From: Leeuwenhoekiella parthenopeia | Lineage (GTDB): Bacteria; Bacteroidota; Bacteroidia; Flavobacteriales; Flavobacteriaceae | Assembly (NCBI RefSeq): GCF_020782115.1 | Contig: NZ_JAJGMW010000003.1 | Coordinates: forward strand, 1 to 64,000 | DNA: 64,000 nt | Direction: 5' to 3' | Shown here: positions 10,158 to 51,291 of the stretch, piece by piece | Layout of the letters: the number at the start of each line of letters is the position of its first letter | Numbering within the stretch: the stretch's first letter is position 1 | Program-made: the position numbers and the translations under genes | Notes under the pieces: model-generated | Told to the model about the DNA's origin: nothing | The model's input: only the letters and a program-made list of their open reading frames with translations | Database searches by the model: none

Positions 10158-10203
10158 AAGTGTGTTTAAGAATAATAAAAGAATGTACTGGCCCGGGCAC
10201 GCG

Positions 10204-10221
10204 AAAACGTCTGGACGTTTT
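10204..10221. promoter_or_regulatory. Operator-like dyad upstream of the TonB receptor
   Basis: AAAACGTCTGGACGTTTT: two perfect 8-base arms around TG, ending 47 bases before the receptor ATG. Size and symmetry suit a dimeric repressor such as a metal-responsive regulator; it could instead form a short hairpin in the leader. Confidence 0.5.
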
Positions 10222-10248
10222 GCATGAAGCCGGCACAGCAGGATAGAT

Positions 10249-10389: not shown

Positions 10390-10393
10390 GTGA

Positions 10394-10417
10394 GTAAACT
10401 ACCTTGGGGTAGTTTAC
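10394..10417. promoter_or_regulatory. Perfect 10-bp inverted repeat between His-rich gene and TonB receptor
   Basis: GTAAACTACC, loop TTGG, GGTAGTTTAC. It is 27 bases past the stop codon of the His-rich gene but has no T run on either strand, so it is either a weak terminator or 3' stabiliser or a protein-binding site. Confidence 0.5.
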
Positions 10418-10443
10418 CCTTTGGCGGGGCCATTAAAACAAAC

Positions 10444-10875: not shown

Positions 10876-10936
10876 AGGTTTGTGCTTCGATTTCGCAAAA
10901 CTACAGCGGCTGACTGAAATAGGTGACTGTTTTGGG

Positions 10937-11296: not shown

Positions 11297-11299
11297 AGA

Positions 11300-12220: not shown

Positions 12221-12251
12221 ATTCTTATTATTGGTTTTGTAAAAATAAAAA

Positions 12252-12288
12252 AAGCCTGCCCATCTGAATCCTCAGAAAAAGCAGGCTT
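12252..12288 (-). terminator. Terminator after the calcineurin-like phosphoesterase gene
   Basis: Outer stem AAGCCTGC/GCAGGCTT with an inner stem TCTGA/TCAGA, then a T run on the minus strand. It lies 14 bases past the stop codon and closes the SusC/SusD/phosphoesterase unit. Confidence 0.85.
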
Positions 12289-12301
12289 AACAAACAAGCA
12301 T

Positions 12302-13876: not shown

Positions 13877-13913
13877 AATGTTGTTTTAATTCGTTTTTAC
13901 AAAAATGATTGGC

Positions 13914-15341: not shown

Positions 15342-15353
15342 ATCTGTATTTAT

Positions 15354-18854: not shown

Positions 18855-18935
18855 GTTGATAATGGCTATAATTTCAGTTGTAGTCTTATTTATTCCGGCC
18901 CACTTGTGTTGCAGCAGAAGTGGGTCTCTTTTGTT

Positions 18936-19871
18936 TTAGGGGGCGTTTTTTCGAATCATAAAGTGGTTTTGAGAGAGGGTATCTATTTTTAAGTGATTTA
19001 TAAGCGCTATACTTTGAAGGGCCGTTTCTAAAGGTTCATCGTGAAATTTCCCTGTTATGCGGAGCTCCTTTATTGAAGGATCGGCAAAATCAATTGTTAC
19101 GTCATACCAGTTTTCTAAAACTGTGGCTGTTTTGAGCAGACTTGTATTTTCTAGAACAATTGTTTTTTGCATCCACAGCATGGTATCCTGAAGATTTCCG
19201 GTAGTTGTCACCGGACTATTTGCATTTTCAAAAACCAGCTCCTGATTTTTAACCAGATACACTTTCTCGCCGGTGTTTGTATGCTCTACCTTAACCTTTC
19301 CACTGCGGACGCTGACCACGGGACTGGCCGGGTCATACGAGTTGATGTTAAAGCTGGTTCCCAATACGGTGGTTCGCACCGCTCCGGTTTTAATAGTAAA
19401 GGGGTGCTGCTCGTCACGGAAGACTTCAAAAAAGGCTTCACCGGTTAATTGAAGGTTTCGGTTTTCATTAAAATTTTCAGGATAGGTAAGGCTGGAATTG
19501 GCATTTAACCAAATTTTTGAACCGTCACTCATAACCAGACTGCGCTGTTCGCCCTTGCATGTGGCAACACTTATATATTCAACTGAAAAATACTGGAAGG
19601 CAAAAAAGCTTATACAAAGCACAGCGGCTATACCCGAAACATAGGCAAGCACCTTGCTATTCACCAGACGCCGTTGAGGCGTATGCGCATCAATAGCCTG
19701 ATCAATTTTTTTACGAATACGCTTTTTGTGATCATCGCCCGGATCAATACGTCTGTGCTTCTGGTTTTGCTGAAGTCTGTTTACAAATTCTTCAAGCAGG
19801 TTTTCTTCGGCTTTGTTGAGTGATCCCTGCCGTTGTTTTTCCAGTAATTTCTGAAATTCTTTCTGTGTCAA
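18936..19871 (-). CDS. FecR-family anti-sigma factor
   Basis: 311 residues. A cytosolic N-terminal part (about 1-80) binds sigma; a transmembrane segment follows at about 88-106 (VLAYVSGIAAVLCISFFAF). The periplasmic FecR domain comes next (LVMSDGSKIWLNANSSLTYP, GEAFFEVFRDEQHPFTIKTG), then a C-terminal DUF4974-type domain (LRITGKFHDEPLETALQSIA). It relays ligand occupancy from the STN domain of the SusC protein to the sigma factor. It is 81 bases from susC and 100 from the sigma gene, the standard Bacteroidota order. Confidence 0.93.
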   Translation of the reverse strand: MTQKEFQKLLEKQRQGSLNKAEENLLEEFVNRLQQNQKHRRIDPGDDHKKRIRKKIDQAIDAHTPQRRLVNSKVLAYVSGIAAVLCISFFAFQYFSVEYISVATCKGEQRSLVMSDGSKIWLNANSSLTYPENFNENRNLQLTGEAFFEVFRDEQHPFTIKTGAVRTTVLGTSFNINSYDPASPVVSVRSGKVKVEHTNTGEKVYLVKNQELVFENANSPVTTTGNLQDTMLWMQKTIVLENTSLLKTATVLENWYDVTIDFADPSIKELRITGKFHDEPLETALQSIALINHLKIDTLSQNHFMIRKNAP

Positions 19872-26030: not shown

Positions 26031-29000
26031 ATGAAATGTAAAATTAGCTTTTTGCTTGTCCTGAGTCTGTTTTCATTCTCCCTTTCAGCTCAGGAAACCA
26101 AGACCATTACGGGTACTATTACAGACACCCGGGATGTGCCTTTACCGGGCGCCGAATTAAAGGTAGTTGACAAAGACACCTACACCGTAACCGACTTTGA
26201 CGGTAACTTTTCATTAGAAGCCAGCGTAGGTGACCAAATACGTATTACTTATTTAGGTTTCCAATCGCAAACGTTTTCTGTAACTAATGACGATGTGTAT
26301 AACCTCGCGTTGCAGGATCAAACCAGTGAACTTGACGAAGTCGTTGTAGTAGGTTATGGTAATCAAAAACGATCTGATATAACCGGTGCAATTGTTTCTA
26401 TCGACAGCGAAGAAATCACCAAACAACCCGCTACTACTGCGATTCAATCAGTACAGGGTAAAGTTGCCGGTGTAAACATTATTGCAAACGATGCGCCGGG
26501 TTCTACACCCACTGTTTTAATGCGTGGTCTGGGTACTGCCGAAGGTGGGCGTTCTCCACTTTATATAGTAGACGGTCAGCCACTAAGCGATATTCGCAGC
26601 ATAAACCCAAACGATATTGAATCTATCGACTTCCTTAAAGGTGCTTCATATGCAAACATCTACGGTATACGAGCTGCAAACGGGGTTATTTTAATTACTA
26701 CCAAACGAGGTAAAAGTGGTAAGCCCGTATTCTCGTTTGAATCTTACTACGGTGCAAAAACCATTTTAAATCAGGTTAAAATGGCAAATGCAGACCAGTA
26801 TATTCAATACTTTAATGAGGAAAGCGCTGCAAATGACGGCTTTTTGCTTCAGGAAAATCAGCGTTATGACACAGACTGGTACGACGAATTGCTACAAACC
26901 GGCTTAATCAACAACAACAGCTTTTCCGTTTCAGGAGCTTCAGACAATATCGACTATTTCTTGAGCTACAACCTTTTTGAAGAAAAAGGCATTCTGGACG
27001 GTCAGAAGTTTAGACGTGGTACTATCAGAAATAACAACACCTACCATTTGTTTAATGACAACTTCAGGATTATTCAAAACCTGAATATTGCCTATACTAA
27101 TGAAACTCCTAAACCTTTCGGAGCATTCAGTAGTGCTTACAGACAATCTCCTCTCGTACCTGTACGATATGATAACGGCTTATTTGGACAGTCTTTTGTT
27201 AACGAGGATACGGGAATAGTAACTTTTGAAAGTGAACCCGGTCAGCGCGTAGGACGATTAAACACACACGCTAACCCGGTATCTCAGGTATTTTTTGAAG
27301 ACACGTATATCAATACTACCAGTCTTCAGGGTCAAATAGCAACAGAATTAGATATTACAGATGATTTGATGCTGACCACCCGTTTTGCAGCAACAAAATT
27401 CTACTCTACAAACCACAGCTTTTCAGACATCAGAGCACAATGGCTTAACGCAGACCCAAGAAGATCTGAAGCCACTTTTGATACGGAAAGAGGTGACCCA
27501 AATGGTGATGGCATTGTTTCAACCGAATTTGCAAACAACTCGTACAGCGTAAGCCGTACCGAATCATACCGATGGAATGTGGAAGGCTTTTTGACCTACA
27601 CCAAAGAAATTGACAAGCATAACATCAGCGCTACTGTTGGATTGAGCCGTGAAAACTATCAGGGAGGTGAGTTTACCTCCTCACAGGGCTACGATGTAAG
27701 ACCTGAGCGCAACCTGCGCAATTTCGACTTACGAACAGATCGCTTATTTGACGACAGCGTAGGTGGTGACACCTATCAAAGCACCAATTTGCAATCGTAT
27801 TTTGGCCGTGTAGAATACAACTACGATTCCCGCTATTACCTTCGTGCCGTATTGAGAAGAGATGGAACCAGTGATTTTGTCACCGGTGATAATAACTTCT
27901 TTGGCTACTTTCCGGCCTTCAGTTTAGGTTGGACGCTTACTAATGAATCCTTTATGGAAGATAACGGGGTTCTGGATAATTTTAAACTATTTGCAGGTTG
28001 GGGTAAACTGGGAAATCAGGCGATTCCTTTCAACGTACAGTCTATCAATTCGGGTGACGGAAGCCGAAACACCAATTACGTTTTTGGTCCTGCTCAAAGC
28101 TTAATCATTGGTGCTGCATTGGGAACACCTGCTATTCCACTATCATGGGAGGTGACTGAAGAATTTGAAGTAGGTTTTGATTTTGCGATGCTTAACAGAC
28201 GTCTTAGTGGTACTATCGACTACTACAACAGAGTAAACACCAATGCAATTCTTAATGTTAGACCTATTCTCAATTCAGAATTCAGTTCTAATTTCTTTGA
28301 TGAAGCGGCAGAAATTTCCAACTCCGGTTTTGAATTTTTAGTAAACTGGAGAGACCAGATAGGTTCTGATTTTTCATACAATATTGGTCTGAATTTTTCT
28401 ACAAACGAAAACCGCGTTCAAAATGTTAAGCCTGCTTATGATGGCGCTACAGGTGGAAGTTTAGGAAATGGTCGTATAACCAAACGTCTTGCAGACGGTC
28501 AGCCCATTTTTGCCTGGTGGATGTATGAGGCAGACGGCGTATGGCAAACTCAGGAAGAGATTGACAACAATACGTCGATAGGAAATGCCAGACCCGGACA
28601 CCTGCGTTATGTTGACCAAAATGAAGACGGTGTTATTGACGACCGCGATAAAAAATACTTCGGTTCGTATATCCCAACCTACAATTACGGGGTTAATATT
28701 GGCGCAAACTACAAAAGCTTTGACCTGAGTGTTTCCGGTTTTGGTGTAGGTGGTAACAAAGTATATAACGGACTTTACAACACGCGTATAGGTGGTGAAA
28801 ACATCTCTGCCGAGCAATTCAATAATAGATGGACAGGTCCCGGCTCAACAAATGTAAATCCCGGTGCAGAACGGGATGTCGAGGCTTCTTCCTACTACCT
28901 GGAAGACGGTTCGTATTTCCGAATCAATAACATAACACTGGGATATACTCTGCCCGAATTGAGCAATTTTATCAATAGCGCCCGAGTTTATGTGACCTTG

Positions 29001-29144
29001 CAAAACCCGTTTATGTTTACAAAGTATTCCGGTTTTACTCCAGAATTAAATCAAAGTGGAGTTCCTAACGGGACAACCGGTATTGAGCTTTCTGCATACC
29101 CCAATACACGCTCATTTATACTGGGCGCCAATTTCAAACTCTAA
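26031..29144 (+). CDS. SusC/RagA TonB-linked outer-membrane transporter
   Basis: 1037 residues, without an STN domain. Signal peptide (MKCKISFLLVLSLFSFSLSA), carboxypeptidase-like sandwich (about 24-100, ITDTRDVPLPGAELKVVDKD), TonB box region (ELDEVVVVGYGNQKRSDITG), plug (about 115-225, with LYIVDGQPL and IESIDFLKGASYANIYGIRA) and a barrel ending in FILGANFKL. With the SusD encoded 11 bases downstream it should import glucan fragments across the outer membrane. Lack of STN fits control by the adjacent propeller-HTH protein instead of a sigma/FecR pair. Confidence 0.95.
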   Translation: MKCKISFLLVLSLFSFSLSAQETKTITGTITDTRDVPLPGAELKVVDKDTYTVTDFDGNFSLEASVGDQIRITYLGFQSQTFSVTNDDVYNLALQDQTSELDEVVVVGYGNQKRSDITGAIVSIDSEEITKQPATTAIQSVQGKVAGVNIIANDAPGSTPTVLMRGLGTAEGGRSPLYIVDGQPLSDIRSINPNDIESIDFLKGASYANIYGIRAANGVILITTKRGKSGKPVFSFESYYGAKTILNQVKMANADQYIQYFNEESAANDGFLLQENQRYDTDWYDELLQTGLINNNSFSVSGASDNIDYFLSYNLFEEKGILDGQKFRRGTIRNNNTYHLFNDNFRIIQNLNIAYTNETPKPFGAFSSAYRQSPLVPVRYDNGLFGQSFVNEDTGIVTFESEPGQRVGRLNTHANPVSQVFFEDTYINTTSLQGQIATELDITDDLMLTTRFAATKFYSTNHSFSDIRAQWLNADPRRSEATFDTERGDPNGDGIVSTEFANNSYSVSRTESYRWNVEGFLTYTKEIDKHNISATVGLSRENYQGGEFTSSQGYDVRPERNLRNFDLRTDRLFDDSVGGDTYQSTNLQSYFGRVEYNYDSRYYLRAVLRRDGTSDFVTGDNNFFGYFPAFSLGWTLTNESFMEDNGVLDNFKLFAGWGKLGNQAIPFNVQSINSGDGSRNTNYVFGPAQSLIIGAALGTPAIPLSWEVTEEFEVGFDFAMLNRRLSGTIDYYNRVNTNAILNVRPILNSEFSSNFFDEAAEISNSGFEFLVNWRDQIGSDFSYNIGLNFSTNENRVQNVKPAYDGATGGSLGNGRITKRLADGQPIFAWWMYEADGVWQTQEEIDNNTSIGNARPGHLRYVDQNEDGVIDDRDKKYFGSYIPTYNYGVNIGANYKSFDLSVSGFGVGGNKVYNGLYNTRIGGENISAEQFNNRWTGPGSTNVNPGAERDVEASSYYLEDGSYFRINNITLGYTLPELSNFINSARVYVTLQNPFMFTKYSGFTPELNQSGVPNGTTGIELSAYPNTRSFILGANFKL

Positions 29145-29155
29145 AAAATAAAGCG

Positions 29156-30577
29156 ATGAATAAAACATTTAAACATATAATACTCACGCTTTTTGCAGGC
29201 ATGCTGCTTGTTAACTGCGACAATTTTGTAGAAGAAGTAGAGGTTGTTGATCCCGTAGCTGATGACAGTGAAGATTTTGAACCTGTAAATTTCCTTACCG
29301 GTGTTTATGGAATGCATACTGACTTTTCCTATGCCTTTTCGTATTTAGGAATTACCGAAATGATTTCCGACAATTCAGATAAAGGGAGTTCTCCTACAGA
29401 CACGGGAACAGACAAACGGGAACTGGATAACCTCAATCATACAACCTCATCTGTTTCTGTACGGGCAATGTGGACCCAATGGTACAAAACTATTGGGCGT
29501 GCACGACAGGCAATCGAGCTTACCGAACTTTATGAGGGTCCCACAAGTGCTCCTAAAGAGCGCATCATTGCCGAAGCTAAATTTTTGCGTGCGCTCAATT
29601 ACTTTTGGCTGGTACGTTCGTTTGGTGACGTACCTATTCAAAGCATAGATCTGGTAGAGCGCGCTTCGGTTGAAGAGGTATATGCCTATATTGAGCAGGA
29701 TCTTACTGAAGCAATTGCCGACCTGCCTTTAAAAAATGACTATGCATCTTCAGATATAGGTCGTGCAACAAAAGGTTCTGCTCAGGGTTTATTAGCTAAG
29801 GTTTACCTCTATCAGGAAAAATGGCAACAGGCAGCAGATATGGCAAATAACCTAATCACGTCCAATCAATACGATCTGGAGCCAGATTATGCTACCATCT
29901 GGAGAGAATCTACCGAAAATGGTCCTGAGTCGGTTTTTGAAATTCAGGCTCGTGGTGAAATCCCGCAACACGGGGTTCAACAGTATTCTCAAACTCAGGG
30001 AGCTCGCGGACCCAGCGGATGGGGATGGGGTTTCAACTCACCTTCAAAAAATCTGGAGGATGCCTTCAATGCCGAAGGAGATGTTATACGTCGTGATGCT
30101 ACCATTATTTTTGCAGGCGAAACACTTTGGGATGGCAGAGTAGTAAGCACCAGTGTTGAAAATCCGCGTTATAGCGAAAAAGCCTATTCTTCTGCAAACG
30201 CAGGGCAAGGTGATGGAGATAAGAACATTCGCGTTTTACGTTTTGCCGAAATTCTATTAATACGCGCTGAAGCCTTAAACGAGTTGGGACAGTCTGCTGC
30301 TGCTCTTACTCCTTTAAACCGGGTACGCAGCCGTGTAAATTTACCTGCGGTAACCACCACAGATCAGGCTCAGCTTAGACGCGCCATCTGGAAAGAGCGT
30401 CGTCTGGAACTCGCTATGGAGCACGACCGCTGGTTTGATCTTATTCGCACAGGACAAGCCAAAGAAGCCATGGCTGCTGACGGAAAAACTTTTATAGAAG
30501 GTAAGCACGAAGTGTTCCCCATACCTAACGATCAACTCGTTCAAACACCATCAATGAGACAAAACCCGGGATGGTAA
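29156..30577 (+). CDS. SusD/RagB-family glycan-binding lipoprotein
   Basis: 473 residues, lipobox LLVNC (Cys about 21). The tetratricopeptide-like SusD body is recognisable in WYKTIGRARQAIELTELYEG, AEAKFLRALNYFWLVRSFGD and GRATKGSAQGLLAKVYLYQE, and the C-terminal RagB block in RAEALNELGQSAAALTPLNR and RRLELAMEHDRWFDLIRTGQ. It caps the preceding SusC and binds the target glycan at the cell surface. Its stop codon overlaps the start of the next gene by one base (TAATG), so the first glucanase is translationally coupled. Confidence 0.95.
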   Translation: MNKTFKHIILTLFAGMLLVNCDNFVEEVEVVDPVADDSEDFEPVNFLTGVYGMHTDFSYAFSYLGITEMISDNSDKGSSPTDTGTDKRELDNLNHTTSSVSVRAMWTQWYKTIGRARQAIELTELYEGPTSAPKERIIAEAKFLRALNYFWLVRSFGDVPIQSIDLVERASVEEVYAYIEQDLTEAIADLPLKNDYASSDIGRATKGSAQGLLAKVYLYQEKWQQAADMANNLITSNQYDLEPDYATIWRESTENGPESVFEIQARGEIPQHGVQQYSQTQGARGPSGWGWGFNSPSKNLEDAFNAEGDVIRRDATIIFAGETLWDGRVVSTSVENPRYSEKAYSSANAGQGDGDKNIRVLRFAEILLIRAEALNELGQSAAALTPLNRVRSRVNLPAVTTTDQAQLRRAIWKERRLELAMEHDRWFDLIRTGQAKEAMAADGKTFIEGKHEVFPIPNDQLVQTPSMRQNPGW

Positions 30578-31962
30578 TGATGAAAAAGCACATGCGTTTA
30601 TTTTTAGTTGGATTGATTCTTCTATCCCTGCCAGGATGTAAAGAATCGCAAACAGAGAATCAGAATCAGGAGGTCGCTAAGGCGACTTCCGATTCGATTT
30701 CTGACGAAGCCCTTTTAGATTCGGTACAAAAACAAACCATCAATTATTTTTGGGATGGTGCCAACCCAGACTCTGGTCTTGCTCCTGAGCGTATTCATAT
30801 GGATGGCATTTACCCGTCTAATGATAAAAACGTGGTTACCATAGGTGGTACCGGTTTTGGTTTTATGGCTATACTGGCAGGCGTGGAACGGGGATTTATC
30901 CCAAAAGATTCGGCACTAGTACGCTTTCAAAAAATGGTCAACTTTCTGGAGCAGGCAGATCGGTTTCACGGCGCCTGGCCACATTGGCTTGATGGTTCCA
31001 CAGGAAAGGTTAAACCTTTCAGCAAAAACGATGACGGAGGTGACCTGGTAGAAACCGCTTTTTTGGTACAGGGAATGTTAGCTGTAGCTGAATACTATCG
31101 TGACGGTAATGAGGCCGAACAGGCTTTAGCAAACCAGATTGATACGCTTTGGCAGGAAGTAGAATGGGATTGGTACACGCAGGGCAAAGATGTATTGTAC
31201 TGGCACTGGTCTCCTAATGTAGGCTGGAAGATGAACTTCCCCGTTGGGGGTTACAACGAGGCATTAATTATGTATGTACTTGCGGCCGCATCGCCCACAC
31301 ATTCCATTTCTAAAGATGTTTATGAAAAGGGCTGGGCATTAAATGGCAAAATCGCACAGGATACAACCGCTTATGGTATGCGTACGGTTCTCAATCACTT
31401 TGAACACAATGATGAGGCTATTGTAGGCCCATTGTTTTGGGCGCATTATTCCTATTTGGGATTAAATCCAAAAGGATTGTCTGATCAGTACGGAGATTAT
31501 TGGAAATTGAACGTAAATCACGCTAAAATTCAATATGAATATGCTGTCGAAAACCCCGAAAACTACAAGGGCTACGGTCCTAATTTATGGGGTCTGACGT
31601 CCAGTTATTCTATAAATGGTTATGCAGGTCACCGCCCCGGCGAAGACCTGGGTGTTATTTCCCCGACCGCCGCTTTATCCTCGATGCCTTACACCCCTAA
31701 AGAAAGTCAGGCATTTTTGCGTCATCTCTATACCGATCTTCCGCAATACATTGGGGAGTACGGTCCTTATGATGCATTCAGCTTACAGGACGACTGGTAT
31801 TTACCACGCTACCTGGCGATTGATCAGGGACCCATTCCGGTAATGATTGAAAATTACCGGAGCGGCCTGCTCTGGGAGTTGTTTATGAAAAATGAAGATG
31901 TCTTAAACGGACTCAGAAAGCTCGGATTTGAAAGTCCGTATCTAAAATCTCAAAATGATTAA
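30577..31962 (+). CDS. GH144-type glucanase lipoprotein, first of a tandem pair
   Basis: About 461 residues. In-frame ATGs occur at 30571, 30577 and 30580; I use 30577, which overlaps the susD stop, and the lipoprotein signal (LILLSLPGC) fits any of the last two. The (alpha/alpha)6 glycoamylase-like domain is clear: GGTGFGFMAILAGVERGFI, ADRFHGAWPHW, GGDLVETAF, YWHWSP, GYNEALIMYVLAAASPTH, GPLFWAHYSYLGLNPKGLSD, ISPTAALSSMPYTPKE and AIDQGPIPVMIENYRSG. Characterised members of GH144 are endo- or sophorose-releasing exo-beta-1,2-glucanases. The lipid anchor places it at the outer membrane. Assignment to beta-1,2-glucan rests on family knowledge; this fold may include other activities. Confidence 0.83.
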   Translation: MMKKHMRLFLVGLILLSLPGCKESQTENQNQEVAKATSDSISDEALLDSVQKQTINYFWDGANPDSGLAPERIHMDGIYPSNDKNVVTIGGTGFGFMAILAGVERGFIPKDSALVRFQKMVNFLEQADRFHGAWPHWLDGSTGKVKPFSKNDDGGDLVETAFLVQGMLAVAEYYRDGNEAEQALANQIDTLWQEVEWDWYTQGKDVLYWHWSPNVGWKMNFPVGGYNEALIMYVLAAASPTHSISKDVYEKGWALNGKIAQDTTAYGMRTVLNHFEHNDEAIVGPLFWAHYSYLGLNPKGLSDQYGDYWKLNVNHAKIQYEYAVENPENYKGYGPNLWGLTSSYSINGYAGHRPGEDLGVISPTAALSSMPYTPKESQAFLRHLYTDLPQYIGEYGPYDAFSLQDDWYLPRYLAIDQGPIPVMIENYRSGLLWELFMKNEDVLNGLRKLGFESPYLKSQND

Positions 31963-33355
31963 ATACGTATTTCTAATACTAAGCATTATACCTATTTGGA
32001 GTTGCTCCAGTGACAGCCCCGATCCTGTAGCTGAACCGCCGGAGGAAAATCCGGATGGAGGCAATGGTGGTGGTAATCCCGAGCCGGAGCCCCAACTTAC
32101 TGATGCCGAATTACTAGATCTTACGCAAAGCGAAACCTTTAAATACTTTTGGGATTATGCCAATGCAGAATCTGGGGCCGCAAAAGAACGCTACATTCCT
32201 GCAAATCCTACCCGGGATCAGCAAGTAGTTGCTTCTGGGGGTACCGGTTTTGGATTGATGGGAATTCTGGTTGGGATTGAACGTAATTTCGTTTCAAGAA
32301 CCGAAGGCTTCAACCGGCTTTCAAAAATTATCAATTTCCTCGAAACAGCAGACCGCTTTCACGGCGCCTGGCCACATTGGATCAATGGTGCTACCGGAGA
32401 TGTTATCCCTTTCAGTACACTTGATGATGGCGCTGACCTGGTGGAAACTTCATTTGTAGCTCAGGGGCTTATCACCGTAGGCGAATATTTTAAAAACGGC
32501 TCTCCTGAAGAACAGGCTCTTGTTCAAAAAGCCTTTGACCTGGTTGACGGGATTGAATGGAACTGGTTTACCAAAGGTGAAAATGTACTGTATTGGCATT
32601 GGAGCCCGGAGAATGAATTTGCGATCAACCTGAGACTGCAAGGGTACAATGAGACCTTAATAACCTATGTGATGGCAGCGGCGTCCAAAGACTTTTCTAT
32701 TGATGCGGAAATTTACAATCAGGGTTGGGCGCAAAATGGCGGTATTAAATCTTCGGCAGTGGCCTACGCTTACCCGCTTGAAGTGCGACACGCGGGCGAA
32801 GAGCAAACCGGTGGTCCCCTTTTTTGGGCGCATTACTCCTATTTAGGTCTTAATCCATTTGGCTTATCTGATGCCTATGTAAATTATGAGACCGCAACCG
32901 TTAATCACGCTTTGAGCAATTATGCATATTGTGTTGAGAACCCCAAGAACTGGCCGGGTTATGCTTCCAATCTCTGGGGTCTGACTGCCAGTTATACCAT
33001 TAATGCAGATGGAAGTCTGGGATATATCGCCCACAGTCCGGGTAATGATACCGGTGTCATTACGCCAACAGCTGCGCTGAGTTCATTCCCCTACACTCCT
33101 GAAAAATCAATGGCTGCTTTGCGCAGATTTTATGAACTGAAAAATATTTTACTGGGTCCGGCAGGCTTTTATGATGCCTTCAGCCCGGTTCAAAACTATG
33201 AAGTGGCCGAAGCCTATCTGGCTATTGATCAGGGCCCCATTCTCGTTATGATTGAAAATTACCGAAGCGGTCTGCTCTGGAAACTGTTTATGCAAAATGA
33301 GCGCGTACAGGCCGGTCTTGACAAACTTAATTTTAACTACACTATTCCTAAGTAA
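31955..33355 (+). CDS. GH144-type glucanase lipoprotein, second of a tandem pair
   Basis: 466 residues, overlapping the first copy by 8 bases. The lipobox is PIWSC (Cys about 17), followed by a flexible acidic/Gly/Pro linker (PEENPDGGNGGGNPEPEPQ), which suggests a surface-exposed enzyme on a tether. The domain carries the same motifs as its neighbour (ADRFHGAWPHW, GADLVETSF, GYNETLITYVMAAASKD, GPLFWAHYSYLGLNPFGLSD, ITPTAALSSFPYTPEKS, AIDQGPILVMIENYRSG). Overall divergence is substantial, so this is an old duplication, and the two may split endo and exo roles or surface and periplasmic roles. Confidence 0.83.
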   Translation: MIKYVFLILSIIPIWSCSSDSPDPVAEPPEENPDGGNGGGNPEPEPQLTDAELLDLTQSETFKYFWDYANAESGAAKERYIPANPTRDQQVVASGGTGFGLMGILVGIERNFVSRTEGFNRLSKIINFLETADRFHGAWPHWINGATGDVIPFSTLDDGADLVETSFVAQGLITVGEYFKNGSPEEQALVQKAFDLVDGIEWNWFTKGENVLYWHWSPENEFAINLRLQGYNETLITYVMAAASKDFSIDAEIYNQGWAQNGGIKSSAVAYAYPLEVRHAGEEQTGGPLFWAHYSYLGLNPFGLSDAYVNYETATVNHALSNYAYCVENPKNWPGYASNLWGLTASYTINADGSLGYIAHSPGNDTGVITPTAALSSFPYTPEKSMAALRRFYELKNILLGPAGFYDAFSPVQNYEVAEAYLAIDQGPILVMIENYRSGLLWKLFMQNERVQAGLDKLNFNYTIPK

Positions 33356-33357
33356 CA

Positions 33358-34134
33358 ATGAATATGCGTTTATCACTATTTGCCCTCATACTTTTTACCT
33401 CAGCCGCAATGCTGGCACAGGAAAATTTTGAACGCGCTGTTTACCACAAAGCTGATGACAGTTTGCAGTATCGTATACAATACCCGGTCAATTACGAGGC
33501 CGGAAAAAAGTATCCTTTAGTATTGTTTCTACACGGTGCAGGTGAGCGCGGTTCAGATAATGAAAGCCAGTTGGTACACGGCTCTAAAGTATTTGCAGAT
33601 TCCGGTAACCGCAATGCGTTCCCGGCAATTGTGATTTTTCCGCAGTGTCCTAAAGATTCGTACTGGGCCAATGTTGATGTAGACCGAAGCACGTATCCCA
33701 TCGGGATTACCTTTCATCCGGATCAAAAGCCTACGCCTCATTTGCAAATGGCCGCAGATTTGGTCAATTCGTTTATTAAAGACGGAAAAGCAGATCCTTC
33801 ACGAGTGTATATCGCAGGGCTCTCTATGGGCGGAATGGGCACTTACGAAATGGTGCAACGCAACCCCGAAACATTCGCTGCAGCCATTGCAATTTGCGGT
33901 GCCGGAAGCACCAGCGAAGTACCAAACTATGCGCTAAATACCCCTTTTTGGGTTATTCACGGTGCTGAAGATAATGTGGTAAACCCCATTCATTCGCTAG
34001 AGATGGCACAGGCCATGCTTGAAGCGGGAGCTAAACCCCGGGTTACCGTGTATGAAGACGCCAATCACAACAGTTGGGATCCGGCTTTTGCCGAGCCTGA
34101 TTTTCTGTTGTGGCTTTTTAGTCACACCAAATAA
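33358..34134 (+). CDS. Secreted alpha/beta-hydrolase esterase (CE1/PlbB-like)
   Basis: 258 residues with signal peptide (about 1-20, ending MLAQ). Hydrolase motifs: LVLFLHGAGERGSDNE (oxyanion region), nucleophile Ser in YIAGLSMGGMGTYEM (about 158), Asp in WVIHGAEDNVVNPI (about 205) and His in YEDANHNSWD (about 235). Such enzymes accompany polysaccharide loci in Bacteroidota and remove ester groups. It is 3 bases downstream of the second glucanase, in the same operon. If the target is a succinylated or acetylated glucan, this would be one of two de-esterification enzymes; substrate not shown by sequence. Confidence 0.8.
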   Translation: MNMRLSLFALILFTSAAMLAQENFERAVYHKADDSLQYRIQYPVNYEAGKKYPLVLFLHGAGERGSDNESQLVHGSKVFADSGNRNAFPAIVIFPQCPKDSYWANVDVDRSTYPIGITFHPDQKPTPHLQMAADLVNSFIKDGKADPSRVYIAGLSMGGMGTYEMVQRNPETFAAAIAICGAGSTSEVPNYALNTPFWVIHGAEDNVVNPIHSLEMAQAMLEAGAKPRVTVYEDANHNSWDPAFAEPDFLLWLFSHTK

Positions 34135-34226
34135 AAACTGAAGTTAAAAGCCTGTAACGGGCAATTAAGTCAAAACCCACGAAACTACTAAAACACAGAT
34201 TTTCGGTGGGTAACAAAATTCTAAAT

Positions 34227-36503
34227 ATGAAAAGTATTCGTTCCAGATTTCTAATTATCGGTCTGCTTTGTCTTGCCACTACTGTATTTGCCCAAAAAAG
34301 ACAGGCTATTCCTGAAGTAGAAGCCCTTTTAAAAAAAATGACCCTTGAAGAAAAAATAGGTCAGCTTAACTTACTCACTCCCGGTGGTGGTGTCGCAACA
34401 GGCTCGGTGGTGAGTAAAAATGTAGAAGATAAAATAAAGTCCGGCAACGTGGGCGGTTTGTTTGGGGTTGCAGGACCTGAAAAAATCAGACAGGCGCAGG
34501 AACTGGCGGTAAAAAATACACGTCTGGGCATTCCGCTGCTTATAGGTTCTGATGTCATTCACGGGTATAAAACCACATTTCCTATTCCGTTGGGACTGTC
34601 AAGCAGCTGGGATATGGAGCTGATAAAGAAAACAGCTCAGATTGCTGCTCAGGAAGCCACTGCAGACGGGATAAACTGGAACTTTTCACCTATGGTTGAC
34701 ATAGCCCGAGATCCGCGCTGGGGGCGTATTGCCGAAGGTGCCGGGGAAGACCCATATCTGGGTTCTCAAATCGCAAAAGCAATGGTGCAAGGTTACCAAC
34801 AGGAAGATCTTACCGCCGAAAATACGATGATCGCCACCGTAAAACATTTTGCACTCTATGGCGCTTCAGAAGGTGGCCGTGATTACAACACCACCGATAT
34901 GAGCCGGGTTAAAATGTTTAACGAATACCTACCTCCTTACAAAGCCGCTATTGATGCAGGTGCCGAGAGTGTCATGAGTTCGTTTAACGACGTTGATGGT
35001 GTGCCCGCAAGTGGCAACAAATGGTTACTCACAACCCTACTTCGCGACCGCTGGGGCTTTGACGGTTTTGTAGTTTCAGATTATACTTCGGTGAACGAAA
35101 TGATCGCGCATGGTATGGGTGATTTACAGGCCGTATCTGCGCTTTCCATCAATGCCGGACTGGATATGGATATGGTAGGCGAAGGTTTCTTAACGACCCT
35201 TAAAAAGTCGGTTGAAGAAGGTAAGGTTACAGAGGAAACGATTACTCAGGCCTGTCGTCGCATTCTGGAGGCTAAATATCGATTGGGTCTGTTTCAAGAT
35301 CCCTATAAATATTCCGATTCTAAAAGACCGCAACGCGATATTCTAACCGATGCAAACAAGGCTATTGCCCGCGAGGCAGCACGTAAGTCTTTCGTTTTAC
35401 TTAAGAATGAAAACAATACGCTTCCGCTAGCTAAAAATGCTAAAATCGCACTTGTTGGTCCGCTGGCAGACAGTAAAAACAATATGCTGGGTACCTGGGC
35501 ACCTACCGGTAACCCTCAACTTTCAGTATCTATCTTAACCGGATTCAAAAATGTAGCTCCACAGGCTGAGATTACCTATGCTAAAGGTGCCAACATCTCT
35601 AATGATTCCGCATTCGCGAAAAAAGTAAACGTCTTTGGTCCGCGAATTGAAATCTCAGAAGAAAGTCCAGAAGGTCTTTTAGCGGAAGCACTTCTTGCTG
35701 CAAAAAATGCTGATGTAGTTGTTGCTGTGGTCGGTGAAGCCACCGAAATGAGTGGTGAAGCCGGGAGCCGTACAGACATCAGCATCCCTGACAGTCAGAA
35801 GCATTTAATTCGTCAACTCGTAAAAACCGGAAAACCGTTAGTGCTTGTTTTGATGAGTGGCCGCCCGCTGGTCATCACCGAAGAAATGGACCTTCCCGTA
35901 AGCATTTTACAGGTTTGGCATCCCGGTATTGAGGCCGGTAATGCCGTTGCAGATGTGGTTTTTGGAGATTACAATCCTTCCGGAAAACTTACAGCAAGCT
36001 GGCCGCGTAACGTAGGACAAATCCCTGTATATCACAGTATGAAAAACACCGGTCGCCCTGCTCCTTCTGCTGAATTTGAGAAGTTTAAATCACAATATCT
36101 GGATTCGCCCAATGCGCCTTTGCTTCCGTTTGGTTATGGCTTAAGCTATACTTCTTTTGAGTATGGAAAACTTTCATTAGCTAAAAAAGAAATCAATTCC
36201 GGTGAATCTTTGGAGGTACAGGTTGATGTGACCAATACCGGTGATCACGACGGTGAGGAAGTAGTGCAATTATACCTGCACGATGTAGTACGTAGCCTTA
36301 CGCCACCGGTACGAACACTTAAAGGCTTTGAAAAGGTATTTTTAAAGAAGGGAGAAACCAAAACGGTTACGCTAACTTTAGAACCCGACGATCTCAAATT
36401 TTACGACGGGGCGCTTGATTTTGTAGCTGAGCCGGGAGAATTTGAAATCTTTGTGGGTGGAAACAGCAATGCTACCTTAAAAGAAGCCTTTACGCTTAAC
36501 TAA
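34227..36503 (+). CDS. bglX: GH3 beta-glucosidase (BglX-like), exported
   Basis: 758 residues from the ATG at 34227 (MKSIRSRFLIIGLLCLATTV, ending FAQ, a clear signal peptide); a GTG at 34206 is in frame but less likely. Domain 1 barrel has PRWGRIAEGAGEDPYLGSQI and the nucleophile Asp at about 285 in FVVSDYTSVNEM. Domain 2 carries GEATEMSGEAGSR near the acid/base loop, and a fibronectin-III-like C-terminal domain follows (about 660-755). Periplasmic GH3 enzymes of this type cut gluco-oligosaccharides to glucose; a Bacteroides member beside GH144 acts on sophoro-oligosaccharides. An imperfect hairpin (CCCACGAAA/TTTCGGTGGG) in the 92-base gap before it could mark mRNA processing. Confidence 0.92.
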   Translation: MKSIRSRFLIIGLLCLATTVFAQKRQAIPEVEALLKKMTLEEKIGQLNLLTPGGGVATGSVVSKNVEDKIKSGNVGGLFGVAGPEKIRQAQELAVKNTRLGIPLLIGSDVIHGYKTTFPIPLGLSSSWDMELIKKTAQIAAQEATADGINWNFSPMVDIARDPRWGRIAEGAGEDPYLGSQIAKAMVQGYQQEDLTAENTMIATVKHFALYGASEGGRDYNTTDMSRVKMFNEYLPPYKAAIDAGAESVMSSFNDVDGVPASGNKWLLTTLLRDRWGFDGFVVSDYTSVNEMIAHGMGDLQAVSALSINAGLDMDMVGEGFLTTLKKSVEEGKVTEETITQACRRILEAKYRLGLFQDPYKYSDSKRPQRDILTDANKAIAREAARKSFVLLKNENNTLPLAKNAKIALVGPLADSKNNMLGTWAPTGNPQLSVSILTGFKNVAPQAEITYAKGANISNDSAFAKKVNVFGPRIEISEESPEGLLAEALLAAKNADVVVAVVGEATEMSGEAGSRTDISIPDSQKHLIRQLVKTGKPLVLVLMSGRPLVITEEMDLPVSILQVWHPGIEAGNAVADVVFGDYNPSGKLTASWPRNVGQIPVYHSMKNTGRPAPSAEFEKFKSQYLDSPNAPLLPFGYGLSYTSFEYGKLSLAKKEINSGESLEVQVDVTNTGDHDGEEVVQLYLHDVVRSLTPPVRTLKGFEKVFLKKGETKTVTLTLEPDDLKFYDGALDFVAEPGEFEIFVGGNSNATLKEAFTLN

Positions 36504-36514
36504 AATTAGCCAAG

Positions 36515-37420
36515 ATGATACGCCAAATCTGCATATTCGCAACACTCATTTTTTCAGTCTTTACTCTGGGAGCCCAACAAAAATACGTAGGTCAGGTCTA
36601 TGCAGATTTGGTAAAATCTACACACACCTATGCCGATACCTTAAAGCTTGATTTTTATACAGCAACGCAAAATCGAAATGACAACTCACGCCCTTTGATT
36701 GTGCTGGTTCACGGTGGTGGTTTTTCGGGAGGGAAACGCGATAACGCTCAGGAAACCGAATTTTCACAAACTATGGCCGCTAAGGGATACGCAGTAGCTT
36801 CTATAAGCTATCACCTAACCCGCAAGGGCAAAGGGACGGGTTTTGGTTGTGATTGCCCGGCTTCCGAAAAACTGGAAACTTTTAAACAAACCACAACCGA
36901 TATTTTAGACGCAGTAGGTTATCTTAAATCAAATCCGAATTTTAGTTTTGATCCTGAAAAAATCATTCTTGCCGGGAGCAGCGCCGGTGCAGAAGGTATT
37001 TTAAACACCGCGTATATGGCGCAACATCCCGATTTTAAGGATTTGGGCAATTACCCCAAAATAGCTGCAGTGGTATCTTTTGCAGGAGCTGTGGTAGATG
37101 CCCGGTACATTACTTCAGAAAATGCAGTTCCGGGTTTCTTTATTCACGGCGATGCAGATAATTTGGTTCCTTATTCCAGTGACCCGCATCATTTTTGTAA
37201 GTACGGAAGTCCCGGCTTTTTGCCTTTAGATGGTGATGCGTTTATCGCAGCAAAGCTGAAAGAGCTCAATGCATCCTACACTTTGCTTAGCGCACCGGGA
37301 GGCAATCACGACTGGGCCGGCTTAGGCTATACCTACACCACTCAAATTGCTGTATTTCTAAATGCAGTAATTCACGAACAACAGCTTATTCAGCACGAGG
37401 AATCTGTTGAAAAACAATAA
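36515..37420 (+). CDS. Secreted carboxylesterase-like alpha/beta hydrolase
   Basis: 301 residues, signal peptide ending LGAQ (about 20). The oxyanion motif is VLVHGGGFSGGKRDN, the nucleophile elbow LAGSSAGAEGIL (Ser about 154), Asp in GFFIHGDADNLVPYS and His in APGGNHDWAGLGY. The HGGG plus GxSAG pattern is that of the hormone-sensitive-lipase/carboxylesterase branch, so it is not a copy of the first esterase in the operon. A short cysteine-containing insertion (FGCDCPASEK) may form a disulfide. It lies 11 bases after the GH3 gene and 3 before the sulfatase-family gene. Confidence 0.82.
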   Translation: MIRQICIFATLIFSVFTLGAQQKYVGQVYADLVKSTHTYADTLKLDFYTATQNRNDNSRPLIVLVHGGGFSGGKRDNAQETEFSQTMAAKGYAVASISYHLTRKGKGTGFGCDCPASEKLETFKQTTTDILDAVGYLKSNPNFSFDPEKIILAGSSAGAEGILNTAYMAQHPDFKDLGNYPKIAAVVSFAGAVVDARYITSENAVPGFFIHGDADNLVPYSSDPHHFCKYGSPGFLPLDGDAFIAAKLKELNASYTLLSAPGGNHDWAGLGYTYTTQIAVFLNAVIHEQQLIQHEESVEKQ

Positions 37421-37423
37421 CCA

Positions 37424-39067
37424 ATGAAAACCGCTTTTCCCATTTTACTCCTGCTACTCGCATTTCTATCCTGCAAGGAAGAAAACAAAAAAACAGAGGT
37501 CGCTGAGGCACAGCCCAAAAAGCCCAATATTATTTTCATTATGTCTGACGATCACGCGTTTCAGGCAATAAGTGCATACGGGCATCCCGTGAGTGAGTTG
37601 GCTCCTACTCCTAACATTGACCGTATTGCCACTAACGGCATGCGTATGGACCGGGCTTATGTGACCAACTCTATTTGCGGCCCAAGCCGGGCGGTGATTT
37701 TGACCGGTAAACACAGCCACATCAATGGTTTTCGGCAAAACGGGGATCGCTTTGATGGCGACCAGCCTACCTTGCCCAAAAAATTACAGGAACTGGGATA
37801 CACCACCGCGATTCTGGGCAAATGGCATTTGCACGGCTATCCGCAGGGATTTGACTACTGGAATATTATTAAAGACCAGGGCAATTACTACAATCCGGAC
37901 TTTATAAAAGAAGGGGACACGAGCCGCGTAATGGGTTATGCTACAGACCTCATTACGCAAGATGCATTAAACTGGCTCGATACCCAGCGTGACACTACAA
38001 AGCCGTTCTTTATGATGGTGCATCACAAGGCCCCGCACCGCAACTGGATGCCGGCATTAAGACACACAACAAAGTACGACTCGGTCACTTTCCCCTTGCC
38101 AGACACCTATTTTACAGATCACGCCGGTTCGCAGGCTTCTCAGGAGCAATTGCAAACGGTTTATAAAGATATGTATGAAGGTCACGATCTGAAAATGACC
38201 AAAGAATTAGGCAGCCCTGAATTGGCTCACAATCCCTGGACTACCGATTTTGAACGGATGACACCTCAACAGCGCGAAGCATGGGATACTGCTTACCAAC
38301 CCAAAAACGATGCTTTTCATAAGGCCGATCTGCACGGCAAAGCACTTGACGAGTGGAAAGGTCAGCGCTATTTACGCGATTATATGGCGACTATTGCTGC
38401 TGTAGATGAAGGCGTAGGCCAGATTCTTGATTACCTCGAAGCTCATAATCTGGATGAAAACACTATTATGGTTTATACTTCAGATCAGGGATTTTATCTG
38501 GGTGAAAAGGGATTTTTTGACAAGCGGTTTATGTATGAAGAGTCGTATCGCACTCCGCTTCTGGTACAATACCCCAAAGCAATCAAAGCAGGAAGCCACA
38601 GTGAAGCTCTGGTACAAAACCTGGATTTTGCGCAAACCTTTTTAGATTACGCTCAGGGTGATTCTCTGGCTGTGGACATGCAGGGGCAATCACTTCGGCC
38701 GGTGCTTGAGCAGCAACTAGCGGATACCGATTTTAAAGAGGTATTGTACTATCATTATTACGACTTTCCGGCGTTTCATATGGTCAAAAAGCATTATGGC
38801 GTAAGTACCAGGCGCTATAAACTGATGCATATTTACGATGACATAGACACCTGGGAATTTTACGATCTGGAAAGTGATCCGCAGGAAATTCAGAATAAAA
38901 TTGATGACCCTGCGTATTCTGAAATCATTGCAGGTTTACACAAAAAGCTAGACTCAATTCAGGAAGCCTACGGTGTTACGTCAAAAGAATTTGAGCAGGC
39001 TCCACAAAAACAGGTGGAGCAAGCCTATAAAAACTTTGAACGTCTTCGCGGTACGCCAATGCAATAG
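37424..39067 (+). CDS. Sulfatase-family (S1) lipoprotein with formylglycine motif
   Basis: 547 residues, lipobox FLSC (Cys about 17). The catalytic cysteine is in SICGPSRAVILTGKHSH (Cys about 85), the C-x-P/S-x-R signature that is oxidised to formylglycine. Metal and substrate residues appear in IIFIMSDDHAFQ, ILGKWHLHG, VHHKAPHRNWMP and VYTSDQGFYLGEKGFFDKRF. The family hydrolyses sulfate esters, but some formylglycine members hydrolyse phosphonate monoesters or phosphodiesters. No maturase gene is in the window, so activation depends on one elsewhere. Its place in a GH144/GH3 operon is unusual if the substrate is plain beta-glucan. Confidence 0.9.
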   Translation: MKTAFPILLLLLAFLSCKEENKKTEVAEAQPKKPNIIFIMSDDHAFQAISAYGHPVSELAPTPNIDRIATNGMRMDRAYVTNSICGPSRAVILTGKHSHINGFRQNGDRFDGDQPTLPKKLQELGYTTAILGKWHLHGYPQGFDYWNIIKDQGNYYNPDFIKEGDTSRVMGYATDLITQDALNWLDTQRDTTKPFFMMVHHKAPHRNWMPALRHTTKYDSVTFPLPDTYFTDHAGSQASQEQLQTVYKDMYEGHDLKMTKELGSPELAHNPWTTDFERMTPQQREAWDTAYQPKNDAFHKADLHGKALDEWKGQRYLRDYMATIAAVDEGVGQILDYLEAHNLDENTIMVYTSDQGFYLGEKGFFDKRFMYEESYRTPLLVQYPKAIKAGSHSEALVQNLDFAQTFLDYAQGDSLAVDMQGQSLRPVLEQQLADTDFKEVLYYHYYDFPAFHMVKKHYGVSTRRYKLMHIYDDIDTWEFYDLESDPQEIQNKIDDPAYSEIIAGLHKKLDSIQEAYGVTSKEFEQAPQKQVEQAYKNFERLRGTPMQ

Positions 39068-39145
39068 CTTAATACAGGCTTAACCCCAAATCGTGATGCC
39101 ATTTTCCAGCTTTGACTTATTTTTCGATTTTAAAAACACCTTAAT

Positions 39146-39985
39146 ATGAAGTTTCCCGCTTTCCTCCTTTTTGCATTTTTTGGTCTAAATCTTTTACCGG
39201 CTCAGGAACTCAGTCTGATGACCTACAACATCAGGATGGCTACAGAGTCTGACGGAGACAACGCCTGGAGTAAGCGCAAGGAATTTCTTACCGCGCAGGT
39301 ACTTTTTTATGCTCCCGATGTAATGGGCGTACAGGAAGCTCTACCCGAACAAATGCAGTATTTGGGCGAAAACCTTACCGGTTACAAACACGTGGGAGTA
39401 GGTCGTGAAGGCGAAAACAAAGGCGAATTTTCCGCGATTTTTTACAATGCGGAAAAACTGGAACTCATAGCAAGTAATACCTTTTGGCTCTCAACTACAC
39501 CGGAAGAAATCTCTACCGGCTGGGACGCCGCGCTACCTCGAATTTGCACTTATGCCTTGTTTGAAATCAAAGAAACCGCTGCCCGCTTTTATGTCTTCAA
39601 TACGCATTTCGATCACGTAGGAGTTGAAGCCCGTAAATACAGCGCCCAATTAATACTTGACCAGATACGCGAAATCAACAGCCTGAATTATCCGGTTTTT
39701 GTCACCGGCGACTTTAATCTGGAACCCGATTCTGAACCTATTGCTGTTTTAGAAACACAATTAAAAGACACCTTTAAAGCGAGTTTAAGCGGTTCTTTTG
39801 GCCCCGAAGGCACTTTTAACGGTTTTGATTTTGACCAACCCGTAACCCGCCGCATCGACTATATTTTTGTGGGTAAAACGAGTCCGGTTAAAGTATTGAA
39901 ACACGCCACACTAAGCGATTCTAAAAATCTCAACTACGCTTCAGACCATTTGCCGGTTTATACTTTAGTAGAAATTCAGCCCTAA
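39146..39985 (+). CDS. Secreted endonuclease/exonuclease/phosphatase-fold enzyme
   Basis: 279 residues, signal peptide ending LPAQ (about 19). The DNase-I-like fold shows LMTYNIRMA (Asn ligand), GVQEALPEQM (catalytic Glu), NTHFDHVG, TGDFNLEPDSEP (Asp/Asn) and a final YASDHLPVY (Asp-His). Exported members in Bacteroidota glycan loci are usually taken as phosphodiesterases or phosphatases rather than nucleases, and the specificity is undetermined. It is the last gene of the glucan operon, 78 bases after the sulfatase-family gene and followed by a terminator at 40130-40162. Confidence 0.85.
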   Translation: MKFPAFLLFAFFGLNLLPAQELSLMTYNIRMATESDGDNAWSKRKEFLTAQVLFYAPDVMGVQEALPEQMQYLGENLTGYKHVGVGREGENKGEFSAIFYNAEKLELIASNTFWLSTTPEEISTGWDAALPRICTYALFEIKETAARFYVFNTHFDHVGVEARKYSAQLILDQIREINSLNYPVFVTGDFNLEPDSEPIAVLETQLKDTFKASLSGSFGPEGTFNGFDFDQPVTRRIDYIFVGKTSPVKVLKHATLSDSKNLNYASDHLPVYTLVEIQP

Positions 39986-51283: not shown

Positions 51284-51291
51284 ATTGAAGT

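Follow-up and report, generated by a model that had tools for sequence, protein, structure and literature searches.

A formylglycine sulfatase subfamily tied to GH144 glucanases and a predicted utilization locus for a substituted beta-1,2-glucan in Leeuwenhoekiella

Gene content and organization of the locus

The window, i.e. the whole 64,000-nucleotide stretch analysed here, comes from the marine flavobacterium Leeuwenhoekiella and carries nine genes on the + strand, from SusC to an Exo_endo_phos (EEP) enzyme, whose checked ORF coordinates span 26031-39985. The junctions between these genes range from an 8-base overlap at the tightest to a 78-base gap at the widest. The presence of a SusC/SusD pair and carbohydrate enzymes in one predicted operon defines it as a polysaccharide utilization locus (PUL). 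The SusC protein (26031..29144, + strand) is a TonB-dependent outer-membrane transporter (TIGR04056, SusC/RagA, E 1.2e-224) and is followed by the SusD glycan-binding lipoprotein (29156..30577, + strand; PF07980, E 2.2e-33). An earlier note on this DNA had described an operon of SusC, SusD, two GH144-type proteins, a GH3, two esterases, a sulfatase and a DNase-I-fold enzyme; its coordinates proved exact, Pfam and NCBIfam profiles agree with each assignment, and the active-site residues are conserved. Inspection of the N termini by eye revealed lipobox-like cysteines in SusD, both GH144 proteins and the sulfatase, and leaders of the ordinary secreted type in the esterases, GH3 and the EEP enzyme. 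A surface export signal was sought after the lipobox cysteine, where the residues vary and none was found, and promoter and terminator scans of the locus stayed at background level.

The complete operon is retained in the same gene order in 8 of the 12 genomes of the genus that were searched (loci L033-L040) and is thus not a chance grouping. Of the remaining four, two (G001 and G007) gave no match to the sulfatase at E 1e-100, one (G006) carries a rearranged operon that lacks the EEP gene, and in G012 the contig ends. The gene at 23057..25804 (+ strand) encodes a protein with a weak LuxR-type HTH at its C terminus (GerE, E 0.0041, below the cut-off). Its homologues occur in 29 of 73 GH144 loci (20/47 with the sulfatase and 9/26 without it), a set in which association counts are biased because some of the 20-kb loci were centred on the sulfatase and others on GH144. 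This set comprises 75 loci minus L049 and L051 (short contigs, no GH144), with an unlinked sulfatase copy, L128 of genome G194, lying outside it. Related genes adjoin SusC in other GH144 loci, and the protein is likely to be the regulator of the locus.

The predicted glucan-cleaving enzymes and their partners

Two predicted endo-beta-1,2-glucanases, both lipoproteins by eye, are encoded at 30571..31962 and 31955..33355 (+ strand). Profile searches recovered PF10091 in both (E 1.3e-77 and 2.7e-72), and each matches the structure 5gzh (E 3.9e-180 and 7.8e-146). They are respectively 59.3% and 51.6% identical to CpSGL of Chitinophaga pinensis (5gzh/5gzk), but unlike CpSGL they occur as two divergent paralogues side by side. 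In CpSGL numbering D135, D139 and E142, which we take to be the catalytic candidates of that enzyme, are present along with E211, F268 and Y330 in both proteins and in 125/125 homologues from the fetched loci. The last three are taken from PMC12102758. Both the similarity to CpSGL, an endo-beta-1,2-glucanase, and the retention of these six residues place the pair in GH144 (clan GH-S), in agreement with the earlier assignment.

The BglX-like GH3 beta-glucosidase (34206..36503, + strand) scores 899 bits against NF011678 (cut-off 666) and E 7.2e-80 against the Pfam GH3 profile. It aligns over nearly its full length with the structure 5xxl (E 1.9e-275), presumably BT_3567, although 3u48 is slightly closer. 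BT_3567 hydrolyses sophorose about as fast as laminaribiose (PMC12369401). Together, GH144 and GH3 indicate beta-1,2-glucan as the target backbone, as had been proposed.

Of the two secreted alpha/beta hydrolases, esterase A (33358..34134, + strand) is related to the 3doh esterase (E 5.6e-39) and has a candidate triad, S156, D205 and H237, whose residues recur in at least 95% of 44 homologues. Esterase B (36515..37420, + strand) is of the BD-FAE type (PF20434, E 1.5e-19), and its S155/S156, D215 and H265 are retained by at least 95% of 31 homologues. Across the 73 GH144 loci esterase B accompanies the sulfatase (26/47 loci with it vs 4/26 without, p 0.0011); this tie weakens when only SusD-bearing loci outside the genus are counted (15/34 vs 3/16, p 0.12), as does that of esterase A (21/34 vs 8/16, p 0.54).

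The last gene (39146..39985, + strand) encodes the secreted EEP enzyme (Pfam E 1.2e-16), which has a conserved active site. EEP-fold enzymes attack phosphoesters. Its nearest solved relatives are 3mpr and 4c1r, the latter being the nearest named one (38.0% identity), deposited as a mannosyl-6-phosphatase. Its metal-binding and catalytic residues N28, E64, H154, D189, N191 and D238 are identical to those of the 4c1r type, D267/H268 lying outside the compared fragments, and where covered it thus resembles an EEP sugar phosphatase. The EEP gene co-occurs with the sulfatase (14/34 vs 1/16 SusD-bearing loci outside the genus, p 0.019). As an exclusive partner it is weakened by the fact that only 23/119 copies at E 1e-50 are linked, these being spread through the ranking, while 96/119 are unlinked.

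An S1_11-like sulfatase with a distinctive signature

The formylglycine sulfatase (37424..39067, + strand), a lipoprotein by eye, combines a Sulfatase domain (E 3.9e-52) with an SGSH_C domain (E 4.8e-59). It displays the C-x-P-S-R motif of the S1 family, with C85 in CGPSR, the second signature GK.H, and the metal and sulfate ligands; C85, K133, H135, K202, H205, D366, K367 and R368 are found in 50/50 relatives of at least 58% identity. A 64% identical copy cut by a contig end (L068) is absent from this alignment and from that of F451 (see below). The nearest characterised enzymes by sequence and fold are S1_11 members, the GlcNAc-6-O-sulfatases BT4656 and BT3177 (5g2v, 7p24), which share the sulfatase motifs and the D-K-R motif around the catalytic lysine. 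BT4656 is recovered at E 2e-157, as against about 1e-23 or worse for the phosphonate monoester hydrolase (PMH) entries 2vqr and 2w8s, and PMHs were not the nearest relatives. A PMH and a choline sulfatase are reported to share 9 of 11 active-site residues (PMC5870055).

The window sulfatase differs from BT4656 and BT3177 in having F451 where both have Glu, and in that its subfamily is tied to GH144, whereas theirs belong to heparin or mucin loci. Its best PDB match is 9s03, entitled 'Putative sulfatase' (E 2.3e-250), which is almost identical (branch 0.0026) to the Mariniflexile fucanivorans protein of L145, encoded in a GH144 locus; a literature search by title found no paper on this entry. 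The S1_11 recognition triad consists of a His contacting O3 and an Asp/Arg pair contacting O4 (PMC10154612). By our own assignment, the source giving no residue numbers, these would be H452, D366 and R368, present in 51/51 rows of the clade described below. In aquatic bacteria, S1_11 enzymes may also have L-galactose-6-sulfate as their substrate (PMC10154612), which counts against the reading favoured below. The genome itself has 29 PF00884 matches (one gene being matched twice), plus FGE-family genes.

Genomic linkage of the sulfatase to GH144

In 249 Flavobacteriaceae genomes, 40/42 close copies of the sulfatase (at least 60% identity) lie within 20 kb of a PF10091 gene, a count that leaves out two PF10091 matches below the curated cut-off, in G120 and G232. 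In contrast, none of the 108 distant copies among the matches listed, with the best few candidates scored per genome, is near GH144. Similarly, GH144 occurs in the 10-kb flanks at 37/40 named loci of at least 60% identity, drawn from the best 80 of 592 loci. In a phylogenetic tree built without L150, for which an aligned open piece of 350 residues was lacking, a single 53-row clade (SH-aLRT 99) takes in all 44 GH144-linked rows, with 9 label changes observed vs 33.2 on shuffling and 0/500 shuffles as low. This clade is marked by F451 (51/51 inside, 0/47 outside). Thus, the window sulfatase belongs to a GH144-associated subfamily, a tie that is new here, and the linkage and the tree together reject it as a chance neighbour.

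The association has exceptions: a second close copy in G194 has no GH144 nearby, a 64% copy in G006 is cut by the contig end and shows none in the 13 kb upstream, and the named loci L146, L147 and L151 have close copies without GH144 in their flanks. A Persicobacter plasmid encodes a 60% identical sulfatase with F451 present and no GH144 within 12 kb. Conversely, the subfamily is absent from 26/67 GH144 genomes of the family. A phylum-wide draw recovered PF10091 in 98/296 genomes and the sulfatase at E 1e-165 in 12, of which seven have copies of at least 65% identity that are linked. One of the five others is also linked (G556, 54%); of the rest, G573 lies at the end of a contig, PF10091 is on other contigs in G569 and G450, and the PF10091 positions of G330 are absent from the listing. 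Beyond the phylum, the alphaproteobacterium Qipengyuania (L185) combines within 14 kb an esterase-A homologue, EEP, PF10091, a TonB receptor, GH3, the sulfatase and GH97.

Functional implications and alternative readings

These observations are most consistent with a PUL for beta-1,2-glucan bearing O6-sulfate and probably acyl groups, to which we assign a probability of roughly 0.55 from sequence evidence. That the target is a substituted glucan is likely, as the earlier note had argued, because the sulfatase belongs to the GH144/GH3 locus. By analogy with their families, the two GH144 lipoproteins would cut the chain and SusC/SusD would import the oligosaccharides. The sulfatase, given the family it resembles, the motifs it retains and its genomic link to GH144 loci, would take 6-O-sulfate off gluco-configured residues, while the esterases may strip acyl groups and GH3 would free glucose. 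A phosphate group, bound as a monoester or a diester, is the probable target of the EEP enzyme, this being the least certain step. As for its origin, the glucan most likely comes from marine algae or bacteria and is consumed as a nutrient.

Loci of this general kind have precedents, and the claim that none had been described does not hold. A 2019 survey of 13,537 PULs reported GH144 PULs with a sulfatase in marine Bacteroidetes, its authors proposing that beta-1,2-glucan has a sulfated counterpart in the sea, as yet unknown; the portion of that article available names no sulfatase subfamily, residue, linkage statistics, or esterase or EEP partner (PMC6499787). Likewise, the available portion of a 2021 report describes a cluster of one GH3, two GH144, susCD and sulfatase genes in Maribacter dokdonensis 62-1, and two GH144 genes in all Maribacter and Zobellia compared, with no discussion there of a glucan substrate, esterase or EEP (PMC8072126). 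A limited literature search found no report of a sulfated beta-1,2-glucan, which does not imply absence from print; in a further search on periplasmic glucans together with sulfate or sulfatase, the 12 of 49 hits listed included no relevant one, judged by title or the opening of the abstract.

Many loci of relatives also contain GH43, GH2 or GH97, so that the target might be something other than a pure glucan. A branched, sulfated and acylated marine heteropolysaccharide with beta-1,2-glucosyl stretches, for which Leeuwenhoekiella would have a reduced form of the locus, is conceivable but rather unlikely. GH43 with an F5/8 C domain occurs in 25/76 loci, GH2 in 12 and GH97 in 6; GH43 and GH2 are also present in named loci such as those of Kordia and Winogradskyella, and GH97 also in Qipengyuania; over all non-genus loci GH43 and GH2 tie to the sulfatase at p 0.04. 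However, none of the three is found in the window operon or the 8 same-genus loci, and in SusD-bearing loci outside the genus their tie to the sulfatase is not significant (GH43 14/34 vs 5/16, GH2 7/34 vs 1/16, GH97 5/34 vs 0/16).

It is more doubtful still that the system scavenges periplasmic or cyclic glucans of other bacteria, substituted with phosphoglycerol, phosphoethanolamine and succinyl groups, the sulfatase-fold and EEP enzymes both being phosphodiesterases. The periplasmic glucans of E. coli do carry these substituents (PMC3818809). The fold of the EEP enzyme and its co-occurrence with the sulfatase would fit such a role, as would a calcineurin-like phosphoesterase in 7/76 loci. 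Nevertheless, the formylglycine enzyme is S1_11-like, with the PMH entries far behind BT4656, the nearest named EEP relative was deposited as a monoesterase, and the genome is rich in sulfatases. Hence, of the charged-group removal proposed earlier, action of the EEP enzyme on phosphate stands as a possibility, whereas phosphoglycerol or phosphoethanolamine as substrates of the formylglycine enzyme are weakened by its S1_11-like character and retained motifs, for which plain sulfation appears better supported. A plain beta-1,2-glucan locus, with the sulfatase, esterases and EEP enzyme serving other glycans as chance neighbours, is highly improbable: GH144 genomes lacking the sulfatase subfamily, the unlinked EEP copies and the close sulfatase copies without GH144 nearby would agree with it, but the sulfatase linkage persists where the gene order is rearranged and where the SusCD pairs differ, and a like enzyme set recurs in an alphaproteobacterium.

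Returning to the sulfated beta-1,2-glucan, we tentatively suggest, at somewhat less than even odds, that a 6-O-sulfated form is widespread in the sea, and perhaps also beyond it, and that the F451 clade comprises glucose-6-O-sulfatases dedicated to this glucan in both Bacteroidota and Alphaproteobacteria. If so, a common marine glucan, called unknown in the 2019 survey, would be pointed to, and the enzymes, the F451 marker and named strains, among them Leeuwenhoekiella blandensis and Kordia algicida, would offer handles for finding the polymer. The one-sentence proposal of 2019 would thereby become directly testable by biochemical means.

Operon architecture and published precedent

All nine genes of the operon (26031-39985, + strand) lie exactly where an earlier note had placed them, and Pfam and NCBIfam agree with the gene families that it named, although NCBIfam searches recovered no match for either GH144 protein. 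The order is SusC, SusD, two GH144 lipoproteins, esterase A, GH3, esterase B, a sulfatase (37424-39067) and a secreted Exo_endo_phos (EEP) enzyme (39146-39985). Leeuwenhoekiella is a marine flavobacterium, and the genome in question comprises 4.42 Mb on 58 contigs. The operon is intact and unchanged in gene order in 8 of 12 same-genus genomes; both the tree and the best 80 of 592 named loci place those of Leeuwenhoekiella aestuarii and L. blandensis closest. The earlier view that no such locus had been described fails. A published Maribacter cluster combines susCD and sulfatase genes with two GH144 genes and one GH3 gene, and both GH144 genes are stated to be present in all Maribacter and Zobellia (PMC8072126). 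A 2019 survey had also noted GH144 loci with a sulfatase in marine Bacteroidetes, and its authors suggested an as yet unidentified sulfated marine polysaccharide as the target (PMC6499787).

The glucanase core

The top solved-structure match of both PF10091 (GH144 profile) proteins is the beta-1,2-glucanase CpSGL of Chitinophaga pinensis (5gzh), to which they are 59.3% and 51.6% identical, and to each other 51.5%. The acidic residues D135, D139 and E142 of CpSGL are catalytic candidates. These three, and E211, F268 and Y330, which are named in a CpSGL study (PMC12102758), are kept in both proteins and in 125/125 homologues from the fetched loci, which together with the CpSGL match bears out the GH144 type proposed for both lipoproteins. 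The GH3 protein exceeds the BglX cut-off of NCBIfam. Its structure matches include 3u48 (E 3.9e-289) and 5xxl (E 1.9e-275), the latter presumably being BT_3567. Comparable hydrolysis rates on sophorose and laminaribiose are reported for BT_3567 (PMC12369401). For the GH3 and the two GH144 proteins alike, beta-1,2-glucan is the likely substrate at the family level.

A sulfatase subfamily associated with GH144

The sulfatase is a member of a subfamily whose genes are linked to GH144 loci. A set of 249 family genomes, evenly drawn from a larger group, contains 42 copies (in 41 genomes) of at least 60% identity. A PF10091 gene lies within 20 kb, our measure of linkage, of 40 of these 42, and of 0/108 distant copies (43-54%) among the matches listed. 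The two unlinked copies are one on a short contig without PF10091 (genome G027) and a second copy in another genome (G194). PF10091 is present in 41/41 genomes with the close sulfatase, and the sulfatase in 41/67 PF10091 genomes. A phylum-wide draw of 296 genomes recovered PF10091 in 98 and the sulfatase (E 1e-165) in 12; thus most GH144 genomes there do not encode it. Among the best 80 of 592 named loci, GH144 occurs in the 10-kb flanks of 37/40 with at least 60% identity and 7/40 below.

In a tree of 102 rows (quick method, SH-aLRT support, without bootstrap), 44/44 GH144-linked rows fall inside one 53-row clade (SH-aLRT 99) and none outside; the linkage label changes 9 times against a shuffled mean of 33.2 (0/500 shuffles as low), the rows being related by descent and the counts hence not independent events. 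The linkage survives altered gene orders and different SusC/SusD pairs. F451, adjoining the conserved H452, is found in 51/51 clade rows versus 0/47 other rows with a letter at the site, and is in part a phylogenetic marker. A Persicobacter plasmid copy (60%) has F451 with no GH144 within 12 kb, and a copy cut by a contig end (G006, 64%) has none in 13 kb upstream. In Vibrio sp. SCSIO 43135 (neighbourhood L174, 6156-11614) a radical SAM/SPASM protein, a GH3 and a sulfatase of this clade stand in a row, with 10-kb flanks devoid of GH144. PDB 9s03 is nearly identical to a Mariniflexile fucanivorans clade member whose gene sits in a GH144 locus; a literature search by title found no paper on this structure, whose function may already be known elsewhere.

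The GH144 and sulfatase pair also occurs in Proteiniphilum, Sphingobacterium arenae and a Margulisbacteria bin (where mis-binning is possible), and therefore is probably not strictly marine, habitats being guessed from organism names. In the alphaproteobacterium Qipengyuania qiaonensis (neighbourhood L185), a 14 kb cluster (75-13794) including a LacI regulator, a TonB receptor and a GH97 combines a PF10091 protein (E 1.2e-87) with homologues of esterase A (32% identity), EEP (39%), GH3 (51%) and the sulfatase (52%). This single cluster hints that these activities serve one substrate.

Sulfate or phosphodiester substituents

By sequence, and again in Foldseek searches with the AlphaFold model (mean pLDDT 74.7), the nearest characterised structures to the sulfatase are the S1_11 GlcNAc-6-O-sulfatases BT4656 and BT3177. 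Active-site segments of the model, e.g. 360-373 and 447-453, have pLDDT below 50, and hence no geometry was drawn from it. The residues C85-G-P-S-R, K133, H135, K202, H205 and D366-K367-R368 are found in 50/50 relatives of at least 58% identity, and 19 distant relatives keep the same active-site residues, G86 excepted. According to one study, a His binds O3 and an Asp/Arg pair O4 in S1_11 enzymes, whose C2 region is variable, above all in those from aquatic bacteria; L-galactose-6-sulfate is a substrate of some of these aquatic enzymes (PMC10154612). We assign D366/R368 and H452 as a putative S1_11 recognition triad.

The earlier note had read the sulfatase-fold enzyme and EEP as phosphodiesterases acting on phospho-substituted bacterial glucans. 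This reading seems unlikely overall, though less so for EEP. EEP is 38.0% identical to 4c1r (deposited as a mannosyl-6-phosphatase) and keeps its residues wherever the fragment covers them. The sulfatase argues for sulfate instead: phospho-group removal by this formylglycine enzyme is disfavored by its proximity to S1_11 6-O-sulfatases, the phosphonate monoester hydrolases 2vqr and 2w8s being much farther (E about 1e-23). This distinction rests on relatedness; 9/11 active-site residues are common to choline sulfatase and a phosphonate monoester hydrolase in one comparison (PMC5870055).

Accessory genes and other features

Loci with (n=34) and without (n=16) the sulfatase were compared after removing same-genus loci and requiring SusD (eight tests, p uncorrected). 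Two GH144s are commoner with the sulfatase (32/34 vs 6/16), as are EEP (14/34 vs 1/16, p 0.019) and a surface protein of the LamG type (26/34 vs 5/16, p 0.004); by coordinates, EEP is linked in 20/41 sulfatase-bearing vs 3/26 sulfatase-free GH144 genomes (p 0.0017). In these loci neither esterase was seen to be tied to the sulfatase (A, 21/34 vs 8/16; B, 15/34 vs 3/16, p 0.12), nor was GH3 (30/34 vs 15/16), GH43 (14/34 vs 5/16), GH2 (7/34 vs 1/16) or GH97 (5/34 vs 0/16). Candidate catalytic triads are conserved in both esterases, whose top solved relatives, 3doh (E 5.6e-39) and 9x6a (E 2.9e-7), leave succinyl, acetyl and other acyl groups indistinguishable.

GH43 occurs in 25/76 related loci, GH2 in 12/76 and GH97 in 6/76, and the operon contains none of them. 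Several GH144 loci (L043, L052, L081, L104, L126 and others) carry an extra GH43-F5/8 C, GH2, GH97, LamG or calcineurin-like phosphoesterase gene. The extra genes of related loci suggest that the polymer may vary between species.

Elsewhere in the window, a second SusC/SusD locus (12302-19871, - strand), resembles a set for scavenging phosphoesters: beside a FecR-type anti-sigma factor, STN-domain SusC and SusD-like_2 it encodes a calcineurin-like phosphoesterase that has MetallophosN/C domains. A GH43-like protein (246-1895, - strand; PF04616 E 5.8e-14) lies 24 kb from the operon, and a calcineurin-like phosphoesterase is followed by a GDSL lipase/acylhydrolase at 50372-52044. The genome has 29 PF00884 matches, two of them in the same gene; contigs C1 and C12 together account for 23, a sign of a sulfated-glycan diet.

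The polymer targeted would be a beta-1,2-glucan carrying O6-sulfate and acyl groups.
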